Both the position numbers and the translations under genes were made by a program. The notes beneath the pieces are model-generated. The model was not told the DNA's origin, did no database searches, and worked only from the letters and a program-made list of their open reading frames with translations. 61,128 nt of DNA from Flavobacteriales bacterium (GTDB lineage: Bacteria > Bacteroidota > Bacteroidia > Flavobacteriales > BACL11): the NCBI GenBank assembly GCA_002705205.1, contig PAHP01000003.1:1-61128 (forward strand), in the 5' to 3' direction. Each line of letters starts with the position of its first letter. Position 1 is the first letter of the stretch. Of the stretch, positions 7,598 through 13,829 are shown in pieces.

Positions 7598-9799
7598 CTA
7601 AAATCCTAAAGTAAGTCCTAAAAGATAATTTCTTGTTGCTTCAGGGAAATAACCAGCCATATTGTAGCCTCTTTCACTATCAGTATTTACATAATGATCG
7701 TATTCTCTTGGGTCATAACCATCAGAAATAAAACGATACACCCAAGCATTACTTACAAATTCGTTATCTAATAAGTTATTTACTTGAAAGGTAAGTTGTG
7801 AAGTTTTAAATATTTTACTGTCCCACTCATAAGATAATCTTAAATTATTTACTAAATAATCATCTAATTTTCTATCATCAGAAGAAGTGTTGTCAATAAA
7901 TTGTTCACCAACATATTTACTTATAAAATCAATACTGATATTTTTAGCTACTTTATAATTGAAATTTGAAGCCCAAATAGCTGTTGGTGAAAAAGCTAAA
8001 TCAGTGTTTTTATAATCTATTTTTTCTTGCTCCCAAGTATCCCAATTGTCAACATATTCAGTGTAGCTGGTTATTTTGTTCTCAGACAGTGTCATATTAC
8101 CTGCCCAAGTTATTTTATCAGATAACGTACAAATAGCTTCAATTTCAATTCCTTTTCTGTATGACTCCTCAATATTTGCTCTTCTATATGCACCTACATC
8201 ATTAATTTGCCCAGTAAGTACTAACTGGTTTTTATATTTCATGTTGTAAAGGTTTACTCCTAATGAAAATCTTTTTCCACTTTGCTTGTACCCAACTTCA
8301 GTATCGTAAAGTGTTTCATGTGATGGATATTCATCAGCTTTATTTTCTACATAATCATTTCTGTTTGGTTCTTTATTTGCTACTGCAAATGATACATAAA
8401 TGGATTGGCTCTGGTTTAAATCATGAAAAAGTCCGACTTTAGGATTGAAAAATGCATGAGTTACTTCTTGTTCGGAAGGCAACCCATTTCTATCATATCC
8501 TTCAAATATATAATCTACCCTTCTTCTTTGCAAATCTAGATAGAGGTTAGTGGCATCAGAATATTTATAATTTGCTTTTGCATAAAAGTTATTATCTAAT
8601 TTTTCGGCTTTGTTCCAGTAATACTGATGATTGATTGCTCCATTACTTGCGTACTCAGCCCAGATAATATTGCCGTAATGTTGCCCAGAGTAACTGTTGC
8701 TAGAACCACCTAAAACTAAATCAAGGTTATCTACTTGATGATTAAGAGAATAAGTAAATCCCCCAAAATCATTGTTTAACCATTTCCTTCTAATAAGGTT
8801 GGTTGAAGAAATTGTATCATTAGATAAGATGATATTTTCCAGACCATAATCTTCAAAATATTCTCCAATTTTTTCTTGCTCATAATATCCTTCGCCATGC
8901 GTATAATGTGCAGCAATATTTACAGTGGTTTCTGTACTTAATTGCTTATTGTAATGCAATTGATAATGTGTTTGTACGTAATTATCAACTTCATTTTTAT
9001 AAGTGTAAGAGTTGAATGTTCTATTTGAGTCTAAATAATTTAAAGGCACACCATTCCAAGCTTGATAAGTGCGTTCTTTTCCTGTAAAAAACAATGCTTT
9101 TACAACTGATTTTTTTCCAAAATATGTTGTTTGCAGGTAAATAGATTTTAAGTTAGAATTTGCTCTGTCTATATAGCCATTAGATGAAATTTTAGATGCA
9201 CGCCCATTGAAAGTAAATTTTTTATTGATAAGTCCGGTTCCAAATTCTATGTTATTTTTTAAAGTCGCAAAACTTCCCATAGAATTGCTAGTTGTAAAAT
9301 AAGGATTTTTCTTTAAGCCATCAGTTTTCAAATTTACTGATGCTCCAAAAGCAGCAGCTCCATTAGTTGAAGTTCCTACACCTCTTTGTATTTGTATGTT
9401 TTCAACTGAGGAAATAAAATCAGGCATATTTACCCACCAAATCCCTTGGCTTTCTGAGTCATTTAAAGGAATTCCGTTTACTGTTACATTGATTCGTGTT
9501 GCATCAGAGCCTCTAACACGAAAACTTGTGTAACCGATTCCAGCCCCAGCATCAGAAGTAGTGACTATTGATGGGGTAAGCGAAATAATATAAGGGATAT
9601 CCTGTCCAAGATTTCCTTTTTCAATTTCTGATTGATTGATGTTGGTGAAAGCTACAGGAGTTTTTTCTCTAGCCCTTAAAGCATTAATACTTACCTCATC
9701 CAGTGTTTTTGTGATTTGTACTGAATCGGTTGGCTGTTGAGCAAAACTAATAAAGGGTATTGTAAGCAAAATAGCTATGCAATCTCTTTTCTTAAACAT
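7598..9799 (-). CDS. TonB-dependent outer-membrane receptor, probable thiamin transporter
   Basis: This 733-aa receptor has a signal peptide (residues 1-20, ISFAQ), a plug domain (about 40-155) with the conserved segments RVRGSDATRINVTVNGIPLN and IQIQRGVGTSTNGAAAFG, and a 22-strand-type barrel ending in Phe (LLGLTLGF), the usual assembly signal. It lacks the N-terminal carboxypeptidase-like domain of the larger receptor at 16251. A TPP riboswitch sits in its 5' leader, so it is repressed by thiamin pyrophosphate and probably imports thiamin or a precursor, like the Omr1 receptors described in Bacteroidota thiamin regulons. The ligand is inferred from the riboswitch, not from the receptor. Confidence 0.9.
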   Translation of the reverse strand: MFKKRDCIAILLTIPFISFAQQPTDSVQITKTLDEVSINALRAREKTPVAFTNINQSEIEKGNLGQDIPYIISLTPSIVTTSDAGAGIGYTSFRVRGSDATRINVTVNGIPLNDSESQGIWWVNMPDFISSVENIQIQRGVGTSTNGAAAFGASVNLKTDGLKKNPYFTTSNSMGSFATLKNNIEFGTGLINKKFTFNGRASKISSNGYIDRANSNLKSIYLQTTYFGKKSVVKALFFTGKERTYQAWNGVPLNYLDSNRTFNSYTYKNEVDNYVQTHYQLHYNKQLSTETTVNIAAHYTHGEGYYEQEKIGEYFEDYGLENIILSNDTISSTNLIRRKWLNNDFGGFTYSLNHQVDNLDLVLGGSSNSYSGQHYGNIIWAEYASNGAINHQYYWNKAEKLDNNFYAKANYKYSDATNLYLDLQRRRVDYIFEGYDRNGLPSEQEVTHAFFNPKVGLFHDLNQSQSIYVSFAVANKEPNRNDYVENKADEYPSHETLYDTEVGYKQSGKRFSLGVNLYNMKYKNQLVLTGQINDVGAYRRANIEESYRKGIEIEAICTLSDKITWAGNMTLSENKITSYTEYVDNWDTWEQEKIDYKNTDLAFSPTAIWASNFNYKVAKNISIDFISKYVGEQFIDNTSSDDRKLDDYLVNNLRLSYEWDSKIFKTSQLTFQVNNLLDNEFVSNAWVYRFISDGYDPREYDHYVNTDSERGYNMAGYFPEATRNYLLGLTLGF

Positions 9800-9816
9800 T
9801 TTTTAATTTTTTAGTT

Positions 9817-9863
9817 AACATTAACAAGTTGATGGGGTTACTACTTGCTTTTATTTAATGTTG
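9817..9863 (-). promoter_or_regulatory. stem-loop expression platform next to the TPP riboswitch
   Basis: Between aptamer and receptor start lies a long imperfect hairpin: arms 9817-9824 and 9856-9863 (AACATTAA/TTAATGTT) and inner arms 9825-9829 and 9844-9848 (CAAGT/ACTTG). Its loop holds ACCCC on the minus strand (9834-9838), which could pair with the GGGGT of the aptamer (9927-9931). No U-tract follows, so control would be of translation or by Rho rather than by intrinsic termination; this is inference. Confidence 0.5.
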
Positions 9864-9942
9864 ACTCATTTCCCTAGGATGAATTACCAACTCAGGTTCA
9901 ATGGGTATAATCTCAGCCTTTCGGCACCCCTTTAAGATGTCG
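9864..9942 (-). promoter_or_regulatory. TPP riboswitch (THI box)
   Basis: On the minus strand the conserved elements occur in order: GGGGTGCC (9924-9931), GGCTGAGA, ATACCC, TTGAACCTGA, GGTAATTCATC and GGGAAATGAGTC. P1 can form between GACAT (9938-9942) and ATGAGTC (9864-9870) with one bulge. This is the standard thiamin-pyrophosphate aptamer. It lies between the kinase gene (ending at 9967) and the TonB receptor, so it governs the receptor only. Confidence 0.95.
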
Positions 9943-9966
9943 TAAAAATACAATTAGATTTGAGAT

Positions 9967-10458
9967 TCACGATATTAAATGTGAAATTTTTGAGATAGAG
10001 TTTTCTAATCTATTTTCTCCCTCAATTATAAAGAAATTATGCTTTAATTCTTCAAGTTCTCGTTTATATATTTCAAAGATCTCATCTCTATTTATTGGAT
10101 TTTCTCTTAGTGGATCTGCTTCCCAAGGAATGTCAGGTTTACATAGTAAGTAAAACCTTTTTTTCGACCTTTGTTTTTGAATTTGTTTAAGTATCCACTT
10201 ATTGCAATCTTCATATTTATACTTACTCCAGATTTTAATTGTAATTAAATCAGTGTCTAATAATTGCGAGTTAATTTCTGATTGCAATTGTTCTTTTGCG
10301 ATCTTTAATAAGTCTTCTTTTTTGTACTGCCTATTTAAATTAGTCAGGTATCCTCTTGCATACTCTTTAGTGAATGGAATTTTGAAATGTTTGGACAAAG
10401 CTTTGCAAAGCTGTGTTTTCCCACTACTCTCCGGCCCTGTTACAATTACTTTATGCAT
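9967..10458 (-). CDS. NadR-like P-loop kinase (AAA_28)
   Basis: This 163-aa ATPase starts at the ATG at 10458, which overlaps the end of the permease gene by 8 bases (ATGCATAA); a longer upstream reading frame is unlikely. It has Walker A GPESSGKT (residues 8-15), the motif KEYARGYL typical of the ribosylnicotinamide kinase domain of NadR, and the lid-like segment PDIPWEADPLRENP. NadR-type kinases phosphorylate nicotinamide riboside after PnuC uptake and so trap it. Here the neighbouring TPP riboswitch suggests the substrate may instead be thiamin. No NMN adenylyltransferase domain is present. Confidence 0.8.
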   Translation of the reverse strand: MHKVIVTGPESSGKTQLCKALSKHFKIPFTKEYARGYLTNLNRQYKKEDLLKIAKEQLQSEINSQLLDTDLITIKIWSKYKYEDCNKWILKQIQKQRSKKRFYLLCKPDIPWEADPLRENPINRDEIFEIYKRELEELKHNFFIIEGENRLENSISKISHLIS

Positions 10459-11047
10459 CAGATTTCTTCTTACGTAACCAAGTAAAATATCCAATAATTG
10501 CAACAATAGTATATACTATAAAAAGTATCGAAGTAAGCTGTAATTCTCTATTATAATATAGGTAAACAGACATAAGATCAATTACAATCCAATAAAGCCA
10601 GTTCTCTAATACTTTTTTTATAATCATATAAGTTGCAATTATCGAAAATACAGTTGTAAAAGAGTCAATAATTGGCATCTTTGAATCTGTATATGTTGCA
10701 AAATAAAATCCCATTAAAAAAGATAAAAGCGCACCTATTAGAATTAAAAATAAATGCTTGCGAACGCTCCATTCTGTAATTTGAAGCTTTCTATTATTGG
10801 TATTCCAATTGTAATAGCCATAAATAGCCATAATCAGATAGAAAATTTGCAATCCTGTTTCTGCATAAAGTTGTGCAGTGAAGCAAATGTAAATATATAG
10901 AATAACGCTAACTGTCGCAGCAGCCCAGCACCAGACATTTTCTTTAGCTGCAAGAATGACATAGCTAATTGAAAATATTACAGCAACAGACTCAATAATA
11001 CTCCAATTAAAATTAGTTTGGTTAAGAAATTGAATTATATCATTCAT
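10451..11047 (-). CDS. PnuC-family vitamin permease (thiamin PnuT or nicotinamide riboside PnuC)
   Basis: This 198-aa inner-membrane protein has about seven hydrophobic segments and the PnuC-family motif WCWAAATVSVILYIYICF around residue 38, with QIFYLIMAIYGYYNW near residue 68. Members facilitate diffusion of nicotinamide riboside, thiamin or riboflavin, driven by intracellular phosphorylation, which fits the overlapping kinase gene downstream. I see no riboswitch in its own 80-base leader (11048-11127), so regulation differs from that of the TonB receptor. The substrate call between thiamin and nicotinamide riboside stays open. Confidence 0.85.
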   Translation of the reverse strand: MNDIIQFLNQTNFNWSIIESVAVIFSISYVILAAKENVWCWAAATVSVILYIYICFTAQLYAETGLQIFYLIMAIYGYYNWNTNNRKLQITEWSVRKHLFLILIGALLSFLMGFYFATYTDSKMPIIDSFTTVFSIIATYMIIKKVLENWLYWIVIDLMSVYLYYNRELQLTSILFIVYTIVAIIGYFTWLRKKKSDA

Positions 11048-11127
11048 AAAGATGAGCTTGAGTTTAGTGAGGCTCTTTTAGTAAATGTCAATTTATTCTA
11101 TTTAATGAAGATGTCTTTAAGGCAGCA

Positions 11128-11865
11128 TTAATAATTATGTACTGCATTTGAGATCTCTAGAATCAGATTTTGATCTTTTTCAATAGCATCTCCAACTACA
11201 ATAATATCAGCACCTGAATTACAGTTTACAATTGCTTTTTCTCCACTAGTAATTCCCCCACCAATAATTATAGGTACATTAACGGATTTACTAACTTCTA
11301 AGATCATTTCTTCTGAGATCGGATTTCTAGCTCCGCTTCCGCCATCCATAAAAATAATTTTTAGTCCTAACATTTCTCCAGCCATGGCCGTACAAGAGGC
11401 TACTGAGTTTTTCTCAGCAGGGATAGGTGTAGTGTCACTCATGTAAGAGGCTGTTGTTGGTTTTCCGCTATCAATTAGCATGTATCCAGTAGGCAAGATT
11501 TCTAGAGAAGACTGTTTTAGTAATGGGGCCGTAATCACTTGTTTCCCAATAAGCATTTCAGGATTTCTTCCAGAGATTAAGGATAAAAATAAAATGGCAT
11601 CTGCTTTATCATTAATCTGCATTGCATTTCCTGGAAAAAGAATTATAGGAATATTGGAGTGTTTTTTTAATACTCCCAAACAACTATCTAGATTGTCATT
11701 AGTTAGCAAACTTCCTCCTACAAAAAAATAGTCAACTTTTGCTTTTTGAGCTTTCTTAATAATACTTATGAGCTCGTTATTGTTTTGTTTGTCAGGATCG
11801 ACAAGTAGGGCAAATGACTTTCTTTTAGCCTTTTTATTTTCTATTATTTTATTGTAGATTTCCAT
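11128..11865 (-). CDS. geranylgeranylglyceryl/heptaprenylglyceryl phosphate synthase (GGGPS/PcrB family)
   Basis: This 245-aa TIM-barrel enzyme joins a polyprenyl diphosphate to glycerol-1-phosphate, the step that makes the ether bond of archaeal lipids; homologues also occur in Bacteroidota and Firmicutes. Family motifs are FALLVDPDKQN (about residue 18), the phosphate-binding loop MDGGSGARNPIS (about 172) and IIIGGGITSGEKA (about 198). The 245-aa length and sequence fit the group II enzymes found in flavobacteria. It starts 10 bases downstream of the phosphopantetheinyl transferase gene. The product chain length cannot be read from the sequence. Confidence 0.88.
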   Translation of the reverse strand: MEIYNKIIENKKAKRKSFALLVDPDKQNNNELISIIKKAQKAKVDYFFVGGSLLTNDNLDSCLGVLKKHSNIPIILFPGNAMQINDKADAILFLSLISGRNPEMLIGKQVITAPLLKQSSLEILPTGYMLIDSGKPTTASYMSDTTPIPAEKNSVASCTAMAGEMLGLKIIFMDGGSGARNPISEEMILEVSKSVNVPIIIGGGITSGEKAIVNCNSGADIIVVGDAIEKDQNLILEISNAVHNY

Positions 11866-11875
11866 AAATAGTTTT

Positions 11876-12457
11876 CTAGTTGCAAATATACACTAAAAAG
11901 TGTGAATCTATTCTTTTATATCTTAATGAAAGTTCCTGTTCTTTAAATATTGCTGCTAGCTGTCCTTCTTCAGAAATTGTAAATGGGCTTATTTTGATAT
12001 CATTAATAAAATCAATATTTCCTTGTTGATGCCATTTAAAGATAGTCTCTTTTAAACACCAAATTAATGTTGCCTTTTCCTGTGATAAATTAACTTGAAG
12101 GTCTTTAGAGATAAATCTTGATGATAATCTGAGAGCTTTTCTGCTAATGCGTTCAATATCTAGCCCAACTCTTTTTTTACTAACAACTATTGCAACTAGA
12201 TTTTTTGAATGTGAAATCGATATATACTTACCATTTCCTATCTCAGGGGCGCCGTATTGGTTATAAGTAATTTCTTGATTTGGCTGAATCTCATCAAGCA
12301 CTAATCTGCTAGCCAAGAATTCTTTTTTTCTTTTCTCCGTTTTATATTTTGATAGATCATGCTTCTTAGATAATTTTACTAGTTCATCGTATGATTCTTC
12401 AAGATCCCAAATACCAATTATGCAGTTATTGGTCTTTATTTTTTTTACAAGTCCCAT
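11876..12457 (-). CDS. 4'-phosphopantetheinyl transferase superfamily protein
   Basis: This 193-aa protein carries the two superfamily signatures, VGLDIERI (about residue 97, Mg2+-binding Asp and Glu) and WCLKETIFKW (about 132, catalytic Glu and Lys). Such enzymes move phosphopantetheine from CoA to a Ser of an acyl or peptidyl carrier protein. It is larger than AcpS and resembles the single-domain Sfp-like forms of Bacteroidota. It is transcribed divergently from ahcY and is followed after 10 bases by the GGGP synthase gene. The carrier protein served is not in the window. Confidence 0.88.
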   Translation of the reverse strand: MGLVKKIKTNNCIIGIWDLEESYDELVKLSKKHDLSKYKTEKRKKEFLASRLVLDEIQPNQEITYNQYGAPEIGNGKYISISHSKNLVAIVVSKKRVGLDIERISRKALRLSSRFISKDLQVNLSQEKATLIWCLKETIFKWHQQGNIDFINDIKISPFTISEEGQLAAIFKEQELSLRYKRIDSHFLVYICN

Positions 12458-12468
12458 ATCTATAATTC

Positions 12469-12503
12469 TTTGTCTGCTAAAATAATAATAATGCTTATAT
12501 TTG
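12469..12503 (+). promoter_or_regulatory. promoter of ahcY
   Basis: TTTG at 12469-12472, a 23-base spacer and TATATTTG at 12496-12503 match the Bacteroidota consensus. The ATG of ahcY is 18 bases downstream. It lies in the 64-base divergent gap shared with the phosphopantetheinyl transferase gene. Confidence 0.75.
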
Positions 12504-12521
12504 CAGTCCTAAAATACAATT

Positions 12522-13829
12522 ATGAAAGTTGAAAATATGAATTACAAAGTAAAAGATATATCCTTAGCTGATTGGGGGAGAAAAGAGATTAGATTGGCAG
12601 AGGCTGAGATGCCTGGATTAATGTCTATCAGAGAAGAATATGGGGATAGTAAGCCGCTTGCAGGAGCTAGAATTGCTGGATGTTTACATATGACAATACA
12701 AACAGCTGTATTGATCGAGACATTGATTCATTTAGGAGCTGAGGTTACATGGTCATCGTGTAATATCTTTTCGACTCAAGATCAAGCAGCTGCAGCTATT
12801 GCAGCTATTGGAATTCCAGTTTTTGCCTGGAAAGGAATGAATGAGCAAGAATTTGATTGGTGTATTTTGCAAACACTTACTGCTTTTAAAGGAGGAAAGC
12901 CATTAAATATGATCTTAGATGATGGAGGAGATCTAACAAATATGGTTCTCGATCAATTCCCAGAAATGGTTGATGGTATAAAAGGTCTTTCTGAGGAAAC
13001 TACAACTGGAGTTCATAGATTATATGAAAGAATGGAGAAAGGAACGTTAACCCTTCCTGCAATTAATATTAATGATTCGGTTACAAAATCAAAATTTGAT
13101 AATAAATATGGTTGCAAAGAATCTTTAGTAGATGCAATAAGAAGAGCTACTGATGTAATGATTGCGGGTAAGGTTGCTGTTGTTGCTGGTTATGGGGATG
13201 TTGGTAAGGGTTCTGCTGCTTCACTTAGGGGGGCTGGAGCTAGAGTAATTGTTACAGAAATTGATCCTATTTGCGCTTTGCAAGCAGCAATGGATGGTTT
13301 TGCCGTTAAAAGAATGGATGAAGCTTGTAAGAATGCAGATATCATTGTGACAACTACTGGTAACAAAGATATTATTCAATCTAGACATTTTGAAAGCATG
13401 AAAGATAAAACAATTGTTTGCAATATTGGTCATTTTGATAACGAAATAGATGTTGCTTGGCTTAATGCTAATTGGGGGCATACGAAGAATGAAATTAAAC
13501 CTCAGGTGGACATGTACACAGTCAATAATAATGACATTATTTTACTTGCAGAAGGCAGGTTGGTAAATTTAGGTTGTGCAACAGGACATCCTTCATTTGT
13601 TATGTCTAATTCATTTACTAATCAGGTATTAGCACAATTAGAGCTTTGGAATAATACGGATCATTATCAGAATAAAGTTTATATGTTGCCAAAACACTTA
13701 GATGAAAAAGTAGCTAGATTACATCTTGCTAAGATTGGTGTAGAGCTTGACACCTTACGGTCTGATCAAGCTGAATATATTGGTGTAGAAGTTGAGGGGC
13801 CTTATAAACCAGATTATTACAGGTACTAA
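12522..13829 (+). CDS. ahcY: adenosylhomocysteinase (S-adenosylhomocysteine hydrolase)
   Basis: This 435-aa NAD-dependent enzyme splits S-adenosylhomocysteine into adenosine and homocysteine and so relieves product inhibition of methyltransferases. Motifs include the substrate-binding segment [16 protein letters not shown] (about residue 72), the NAD-binding loop [11 protein letters not shown] (about 227), the signature [11 protein letters not shown] (about 305) and the C-terminal KPDYYRY that closes the neighbouring subunit's active site. Length is typical of the bacterial form. The gene stands alone behind its own promoter. Confidence 0.97.

Follow-up and report, generated by a model that had tools for sequence, protein, structure and literature searches.

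In Escherichia coli, thiamin is phosphorylated by ThiK to thiamin monophosphate (ThMP), on which ThiL then acts. A known transporter-kinase pair consists of a PnuC permease and NadR, a fusion of a nicotinamide mononucleotide adenylyltransferase (NMNAT) domain and a ribosylnicotinamide kinase (RNK) domain. PnuT, a thiamin facilitator of the PnuC family, is said to act by facilitated diffusion, a finding credited to Jaehme in 2018. The roles of the receptor and of PnuT are taken here from the OMthi-PnuT-Tnr3 thiamin uptake operon of Bacteroides thetaiotaomicron (PMC5613172, PMC6977713). The locus analysed here lies in a stretch of 61,128 nucleotides from a Flavobacteriales bacterium (GCA_002705205.1, contig PAHP01000003.1, positions 1 to 61,128), hereafter the window. 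It encodes a PnuC-family permease, a stand-alone P-loop kinase and a TonB-dependent receptor, and it contains a thiamin pyrophosphate (TPP) riboswitch. I propose that it probably serves thiamin uptake in the OMthi-PnuT manner, with the thiamin trapped, likely as ThMP, by a NadR-related kinase and not by thiamin pyrophosphokinase (TPK).

On the minus strand, the order is permease, kinase, aptamer and receptor. The permease gene (10451-11047, 198 amino acids) runs into the kinase gene (9967-10461, 164 amino acids counted from ATG), whose start is overlapped by the final 8 coding bases of the permease, or 11 with the stop codon. The open reading frame (ORF) coordinates thus agree with the 8-base overlap claimed in an earlier note on this DNA. 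The aptamer (9853-9941) begins 25 bases after the kinase stop codon, and 53 bases lie between its end and the ATG of the receptor gene (7598-9799, 733 amino acids). Since this order recurs in relatives, the arrangement is not due to chance. The locus resembles the Bacteroides operon in having a TPP switch, a TonB receptor of the same profile, a permease of the PnuT clade and a cytoplasmic trapping enzyme. It differs in its putative trapping enzyme, for which a P-loop kinase related to NadR takes the place of TPK (PF04263), and in that the switch sits between the kinase and the receptor.

The kinase matches AAA_28 in Pfam (E 1.5e-25) and not TPK_catalytic (PF04263), and no PF04263 protein was found in the window's own genome. 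The ThiK (ycfN) model TIGR02721 is absent from its NCBIfam matches. It aligns to the NadR model TIGR01526 at positions 163-322 only, with 63.6 bits against a cut-off of 341. Thus, the kinase is not NadR, because just the C-terminal RNK half is present; the N-terminal NMNAT half does not align. Its profile finds NadR among the solved structures (9x6f, 3.7e-16; 8x7f, 1.2e-14; 1lw7, 6.2e-13; 6gye, 1.2e-10). The kinase retains its P-loop and a DTD motif, and 29 columns are invariant across 23 relatives. In a quick tree of 149 rows, the window kinase falls in a clade of 134 rows (SH-aLRT 99), while five of the 7 NadR rows form their own group outside it (support 94); the other two, long-branched and of unsure place, fall elsewhere, one of them inside the clade. 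The kinase may have descended from the NadR RNK domain or may be its sister. As a lead only, given that 7 NadR sequences were compared, the kinase has Y46 where five of them have F and W78 where six have Y. The structure model of the kinase was too weak for reading pocket residues (mean pLDDT 60.6; just 4 usable sequences). The fold matches of this weak model are general P-loop kinases, such as deoxynucleoside, shikimate and adenylate kinases, and include NadR 8x7f (VIA Z 9.9, 126 aligned, root mean square deviation 3.0), which is tied with many rows.

Is this simply a nicotinamide riboside uptake pair that happens to neighbour a thiamin receptor? The family names and the NadR homology of the kinase would suit such a pair, and the same class has PnuC-NadR pairs (L217-L220, L222 and L193). 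I consider this very unlikely. As in NadR-PnuC systems, a homologue of the RNK domain adjoins a PnuC-family permease, but the NMNAT domain is missing, a TPP switch is nearby and the permease belongs to another clade. The permease has the PnuC fold family (NMN_transporter, PF04973, 1.6e-55), and the best Foldseek match of its model (mean pLDDT 69) is PnuC 4qtn (E 8.5e-5). In a quick permease tree of 128 rows, a clade of 123 rows (SH-aLRT 99) unites the window with all 4 TPK-linked permeases and one NadR-linked row (L193), and five of the six NadR-linked PnuC sequences lie outside it. The window permease is most likely PnuT by its placement. The earlier note had named a phylogeny setting permease and kinase firmly among nicotinamide riboside systems without TPP riboswitches as fatal to a thiamin role; it did not appear, and the permease groups instead with TPK-linked, TPP-regulated PnuT. 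Its residue N149 is S, A, C or T in all five NadR-linked sequences compared, a lead only at that number. Moreover, five kinase-bearing genomes own a separate NadR.

The receptor carries PF00593 and PF07715, and its profile matches the receptors of switch-receptor-PnuT-TPK loci with 813-913 bits. It thus combines what marks OMthi/OMR1, namely a TonB-dependent receptor, a TPP switch and a PnuT neighbour. Two clusters of TonB receptor, PnuC and NadR were also seen, neither with a TPP switch (L193:1923-5511 in G144, and L222 in G176). The L193 permease is basal in the PnuT clade and may stand near the ancestral vitamin B3 system.

An Rfam scan of the window at the gathering threshold does not list the TPP switch. 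The RF00059 match at 9853-9941 on the minus strand reaches 47.1 bits, where the gathering score is 54.3; its E value is 2.5e-8 for 361 bases searched. It covers model positions 1-105 and has the THI-element sequence and helices. Among 60 relatives, with the window's genome counted in, RF00059 matches at E<=0.001 in 54 and above the cut-off in just 11. Because the match is full length and the same sub-threshold form is typical of relatives, the aptamer is taken as real, though it is below the threshold of this Rfam release. Compensatory changes were found in 6 of 14 predicted aptamer pairs in an alignment of 23 sequences. I claim no expression platform, as the leader folded alone had no excess stability (z -0.39). 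The earlier note had placed a TonB receptor beside the pair and under this switch, which the Pfam and RF00059 matches bear out. It had also left the permease and kinase outside direct control. Since a search for RF00059-type switches upstream of the permease (10900-12600) gave none at E<=1, the switch in the window genome directly governs the receptor only, to judge from the sequence. Of the 35 genomes in the window's family that carry the kinase, 32 have a switch at most 1.5 kb from it on the 3′ side. Second TPP switches were seen before a different TonB plug-domain ORF (L109:3825-3916, G029) and before an ORF of 357 amino acids (L110:2037-2129, G001).

It can be added to the earlier note that some relatives have the permease-kinase pair itself under a TPP switch. 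Gene neighbourhoods were compared for 100 kinase loci, hand-picked at about one per genus from 141 genomes with strong matches, 6 NadR loci and 14 of 51 TPK loci (10 kb). L193 proved to be NadR and was moved, leaving 99 kinase and 7 NadR loci. These were searched with a purpose-built TPP model; some of its seeds were taken from these loci, having first been found by RF00059, and necessarily match. The permease adjoins the kinase in 81 of the 99 loci. A same-strand TPP switch follows 3′ of the kinase in 37, within 300 bases in 24, and in none of the 7 NadR loci was a TPP switch found. Eight of the 37 have no adjacent permease, and thus the link of the kinase to thiamin is independent of PnuC. 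In four loci, L132 and L137 (family f44) and L195 and L197 (f51), one switch precedes the pair and a second precedes the receptor; RF00059 gives two matches in each of these genomes (G295, G280, G181 and G205). Relatives whose pair is directly preceded by a TPP switch, which the earlier note had suggested looking for, therefore exist. Both the switches beside a kinase without permease and those before the pair speak against nicotinamide riboside as the substrate. In L226, L229 and L236 (family f43), the order is switch, receptor, permease and TPK, so that TPK occupies the place of the kinase in the same layout.

For the distribution, kinase, TPK, ThiL, ThiE and ThiK were counted in 246 genomes of the class, all at least 95% complete except the window's own. 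ThiE was scored as present in 71 genomes over the cut-off and in 17 that fall below it with E<=4.1e-26; TenI-like matches weaker than these were scored as absent. Ten kinase matches with E between 2e-5 and 1e-3 were dropped as weak before counting, and so were those of G253 and G144, which belong to NadR. The kinase is carried by 139 of the 246 genomes. ThiE is absent in 158, of which 123 lack TPK and 35 have it; the kinase occurs in 118 of the 123 TPK-negative genomes and in 0 of the 35 TPK-positive ones (Fisher 4e-30, shared descent ignored). Counted by family, these ThiE-lacking genomes give 31 kinase-only, 11 TPK-only, no family with both and 1 with neither (p 2e-9, shared descent again ignored). 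With the strict ThiE cut-off, the kinase is found in 127 of 138 TPK-negatives and 0 of 37 TPK-positives. Kinase and TPK are mutually exclusive in ThiE-lacking genomes, which is hard to reconcile with nicotinamide riboside uptake.

The 60 relatives include 50 with the kinase, 5 with TPK (PF04263), 51 with ThiL over the cut-off and 8 with ThiE over the cut-off. The kinase is present in 48 of the 52 that have neither ThiE nor TPK, and 41 of these 48 have ThiL over the cut-off. Of the 37 genomes in the window's own family, 35 have the kinase, 30 have ThiL, and none has TPK or ThiE. These genomes look like thiamin auxotrophs that need to phosphorylate imported thiamin and have no recognised enzyme for the step.

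Several observations weigh against a thiamin kinase. A same-strand switch was not seen in 62 of the 99 kinase loci. Five ThiE-lacking genomes have neither kinase nor TPK. The kinase also occurs in 17 of the 72 ThiE-positive, TPK-negative genomes (9 of them in family f50), and ThiE-positive genomes do not need thiamin phosphorylation for the ThMP they make themselves. In 4 of the 16 ThiE-positive, TPK-positive genomes, all of one genus, kinase and TPK occur together; in those examined, the kinase is fused to DUF4301. ThiL was not found in the window's own genome, which is 73% complete. Sub-cut-off ThiE/TenI-like proteins could blur the label "ThiE-lacking", and the genomes in the counts are not independent.

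From the gene order, the switch, the family relations and the distribution, I infer the substrate, the product and the direction of flow as follows. The TPP-controlled TonB receptor would carry thiamin over the outer membrane into the periplasm, as in Bacteroides OMthi, and the PnuT permease would equilibrate it across the inner membrane. The kinase would then phosphorylate thiamin with ATP, most likely to ThMP, blocking its exit; the product is suggested by the kinase family. ThiL, where present, would probably convert ThMP to TPP. The kinase would thus fill the trapping role held by TPK (Tnr3/ThiN) in Bacteroides. That a NadR-like kinase traps thiamin instead of TPK, as the earlier note had suggested, is supported by the exclusion of TPK in ThiE-lacking genomes, the trees and the switches preceding the pair, all of them sequence comparisons. 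The reaction pair would be that of E. coli ThiK and ThiL, but ThiK belongs to another family, and E. coli-type ThiK is over the cut-off in none of the 246 class genomes, with weak matches in 19.

The product could also be TPP itself, if the kinase were a one-step pyrophosphokinase replacing TPK in both reaction and role. Its exclusion of TPK in ThiE-lacking genomes would fit this, as would the four kinase-bearing ThiE-lacking genomes in which ThiL over the cut-off was not found (G000, G177, G243 and G292), although fragmented assemblies may explain these. It is nevertheless rather unlikely. The relatives of the kinase, the NadR RNK domain and fold neighbours such as the deoxynucleoside, shikimate and adenylate kinases, transfer a single phosphoryl group, and 114 of the 118 kinase-bearing ThiE-lacking genomes have ThiL. 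Since 33 of the 35 ThiE-lacking genomes with TPK also keep ThiL, ThiL was rejected as proof of a ThMP product. ThiL seems to be unneeded in those 33.

A further link of the kinase to thiamin is a TMP-TENI superfamily gene found in 18 of the 99 kinase loci, in 13 of them immediately before the pair and on its strand. Such a neighbour, together with the fact that TPP switches also control the salvage of thiamin precursors, might suggest that the kinase acts on a precursor or breakdown product (hydroxymethylpyrimidine or thiazole alcohol). This is scarcely credible, because most kinase-bearers have no ThiE, so that phosphorylated precursors cannot be joined, and because TPK, the partner in exclusion, acts on thiamin. 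Ten of the TMP-TENI-like genes were examined: 8 pass the Pfam cut-off, 1 is below it and 1 has no match, and none reaches the NCBIfam cut-off. These divergent ThiE/TenI-superfamily genes (L188:3763-4392, L127:3707-4417 and 16 more loci) occur mainly where no ThiE is recognised in the genome.

Returning to thiamin as the substrate and ThMP as the product, I find it reasonably likely that a kinase family derived from NadR RNK is the main route of vitamin B1 activation in thiamin-auxotrophic Bacteroidia, a non-orthologous replacement of TPK through a substrate change of a vitamin B3 pair. The candidate thiamin kinase is carried by 118 of the 158 sampled ThiE-lacking genomes and appears to replace the usual vitamin B1 kinase through much of one large bacterial class. 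In most ThiE-lacking kinase-bearers, no further enzyme is recognised that could phosphorylate the thiamin they import. If true, the assignment would fill this gap in metabolic models of Bacteroidota, the NAD-related annotations of permease and kinase would need correcting, and the pair would be a clear example of a transporter-kinase substrate shift from vitamin B3 to B1. The candidates are named only by generic or NadR models in Pfam and NCBIfam. A survey identified its thiamin genes by TIGRFAM/Pfam models (PMC5613172). No statement of a NadR-like kinase acting on thiamin turned up in the open-licence papers searched; a prior proposal is possible, for example in thiamin regulon literature.

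Some kinases are fused to other proteins. In genus g17, where TPK is also present, DUF4301 (PF14134) is fused to the kinase C-terminus (L097:3269-5389, L204:3413-5734 and, by similarity, L206:3436-5616). Separate DUF4301 genes were found beside a TPP switch and receptor (L103:4633-6204) and in a kinase locus (L212:3395-4939), and DUF4301 may take part in thiamin metabolism. Other fusions join permease and kinase in one protein of 392 amino acids (L174:4334-5512), the kinase and a GNAT domain (L144:4971-5957), and the kinase and an aldose epimerase (L168:4063-5508). Two kinase matches seem to be decaying or misassembled copies, one with four in-frame stops (G001:C3:155385-155882) and one broken into several pieces (G008:C6:35254-37427). 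Near the pair in the window lies a PcrB-family gene (geranylgeranylglyceryl phosphate synthase-like, 11128-11865), a common neighbour found in 40 of the 99 class loci.

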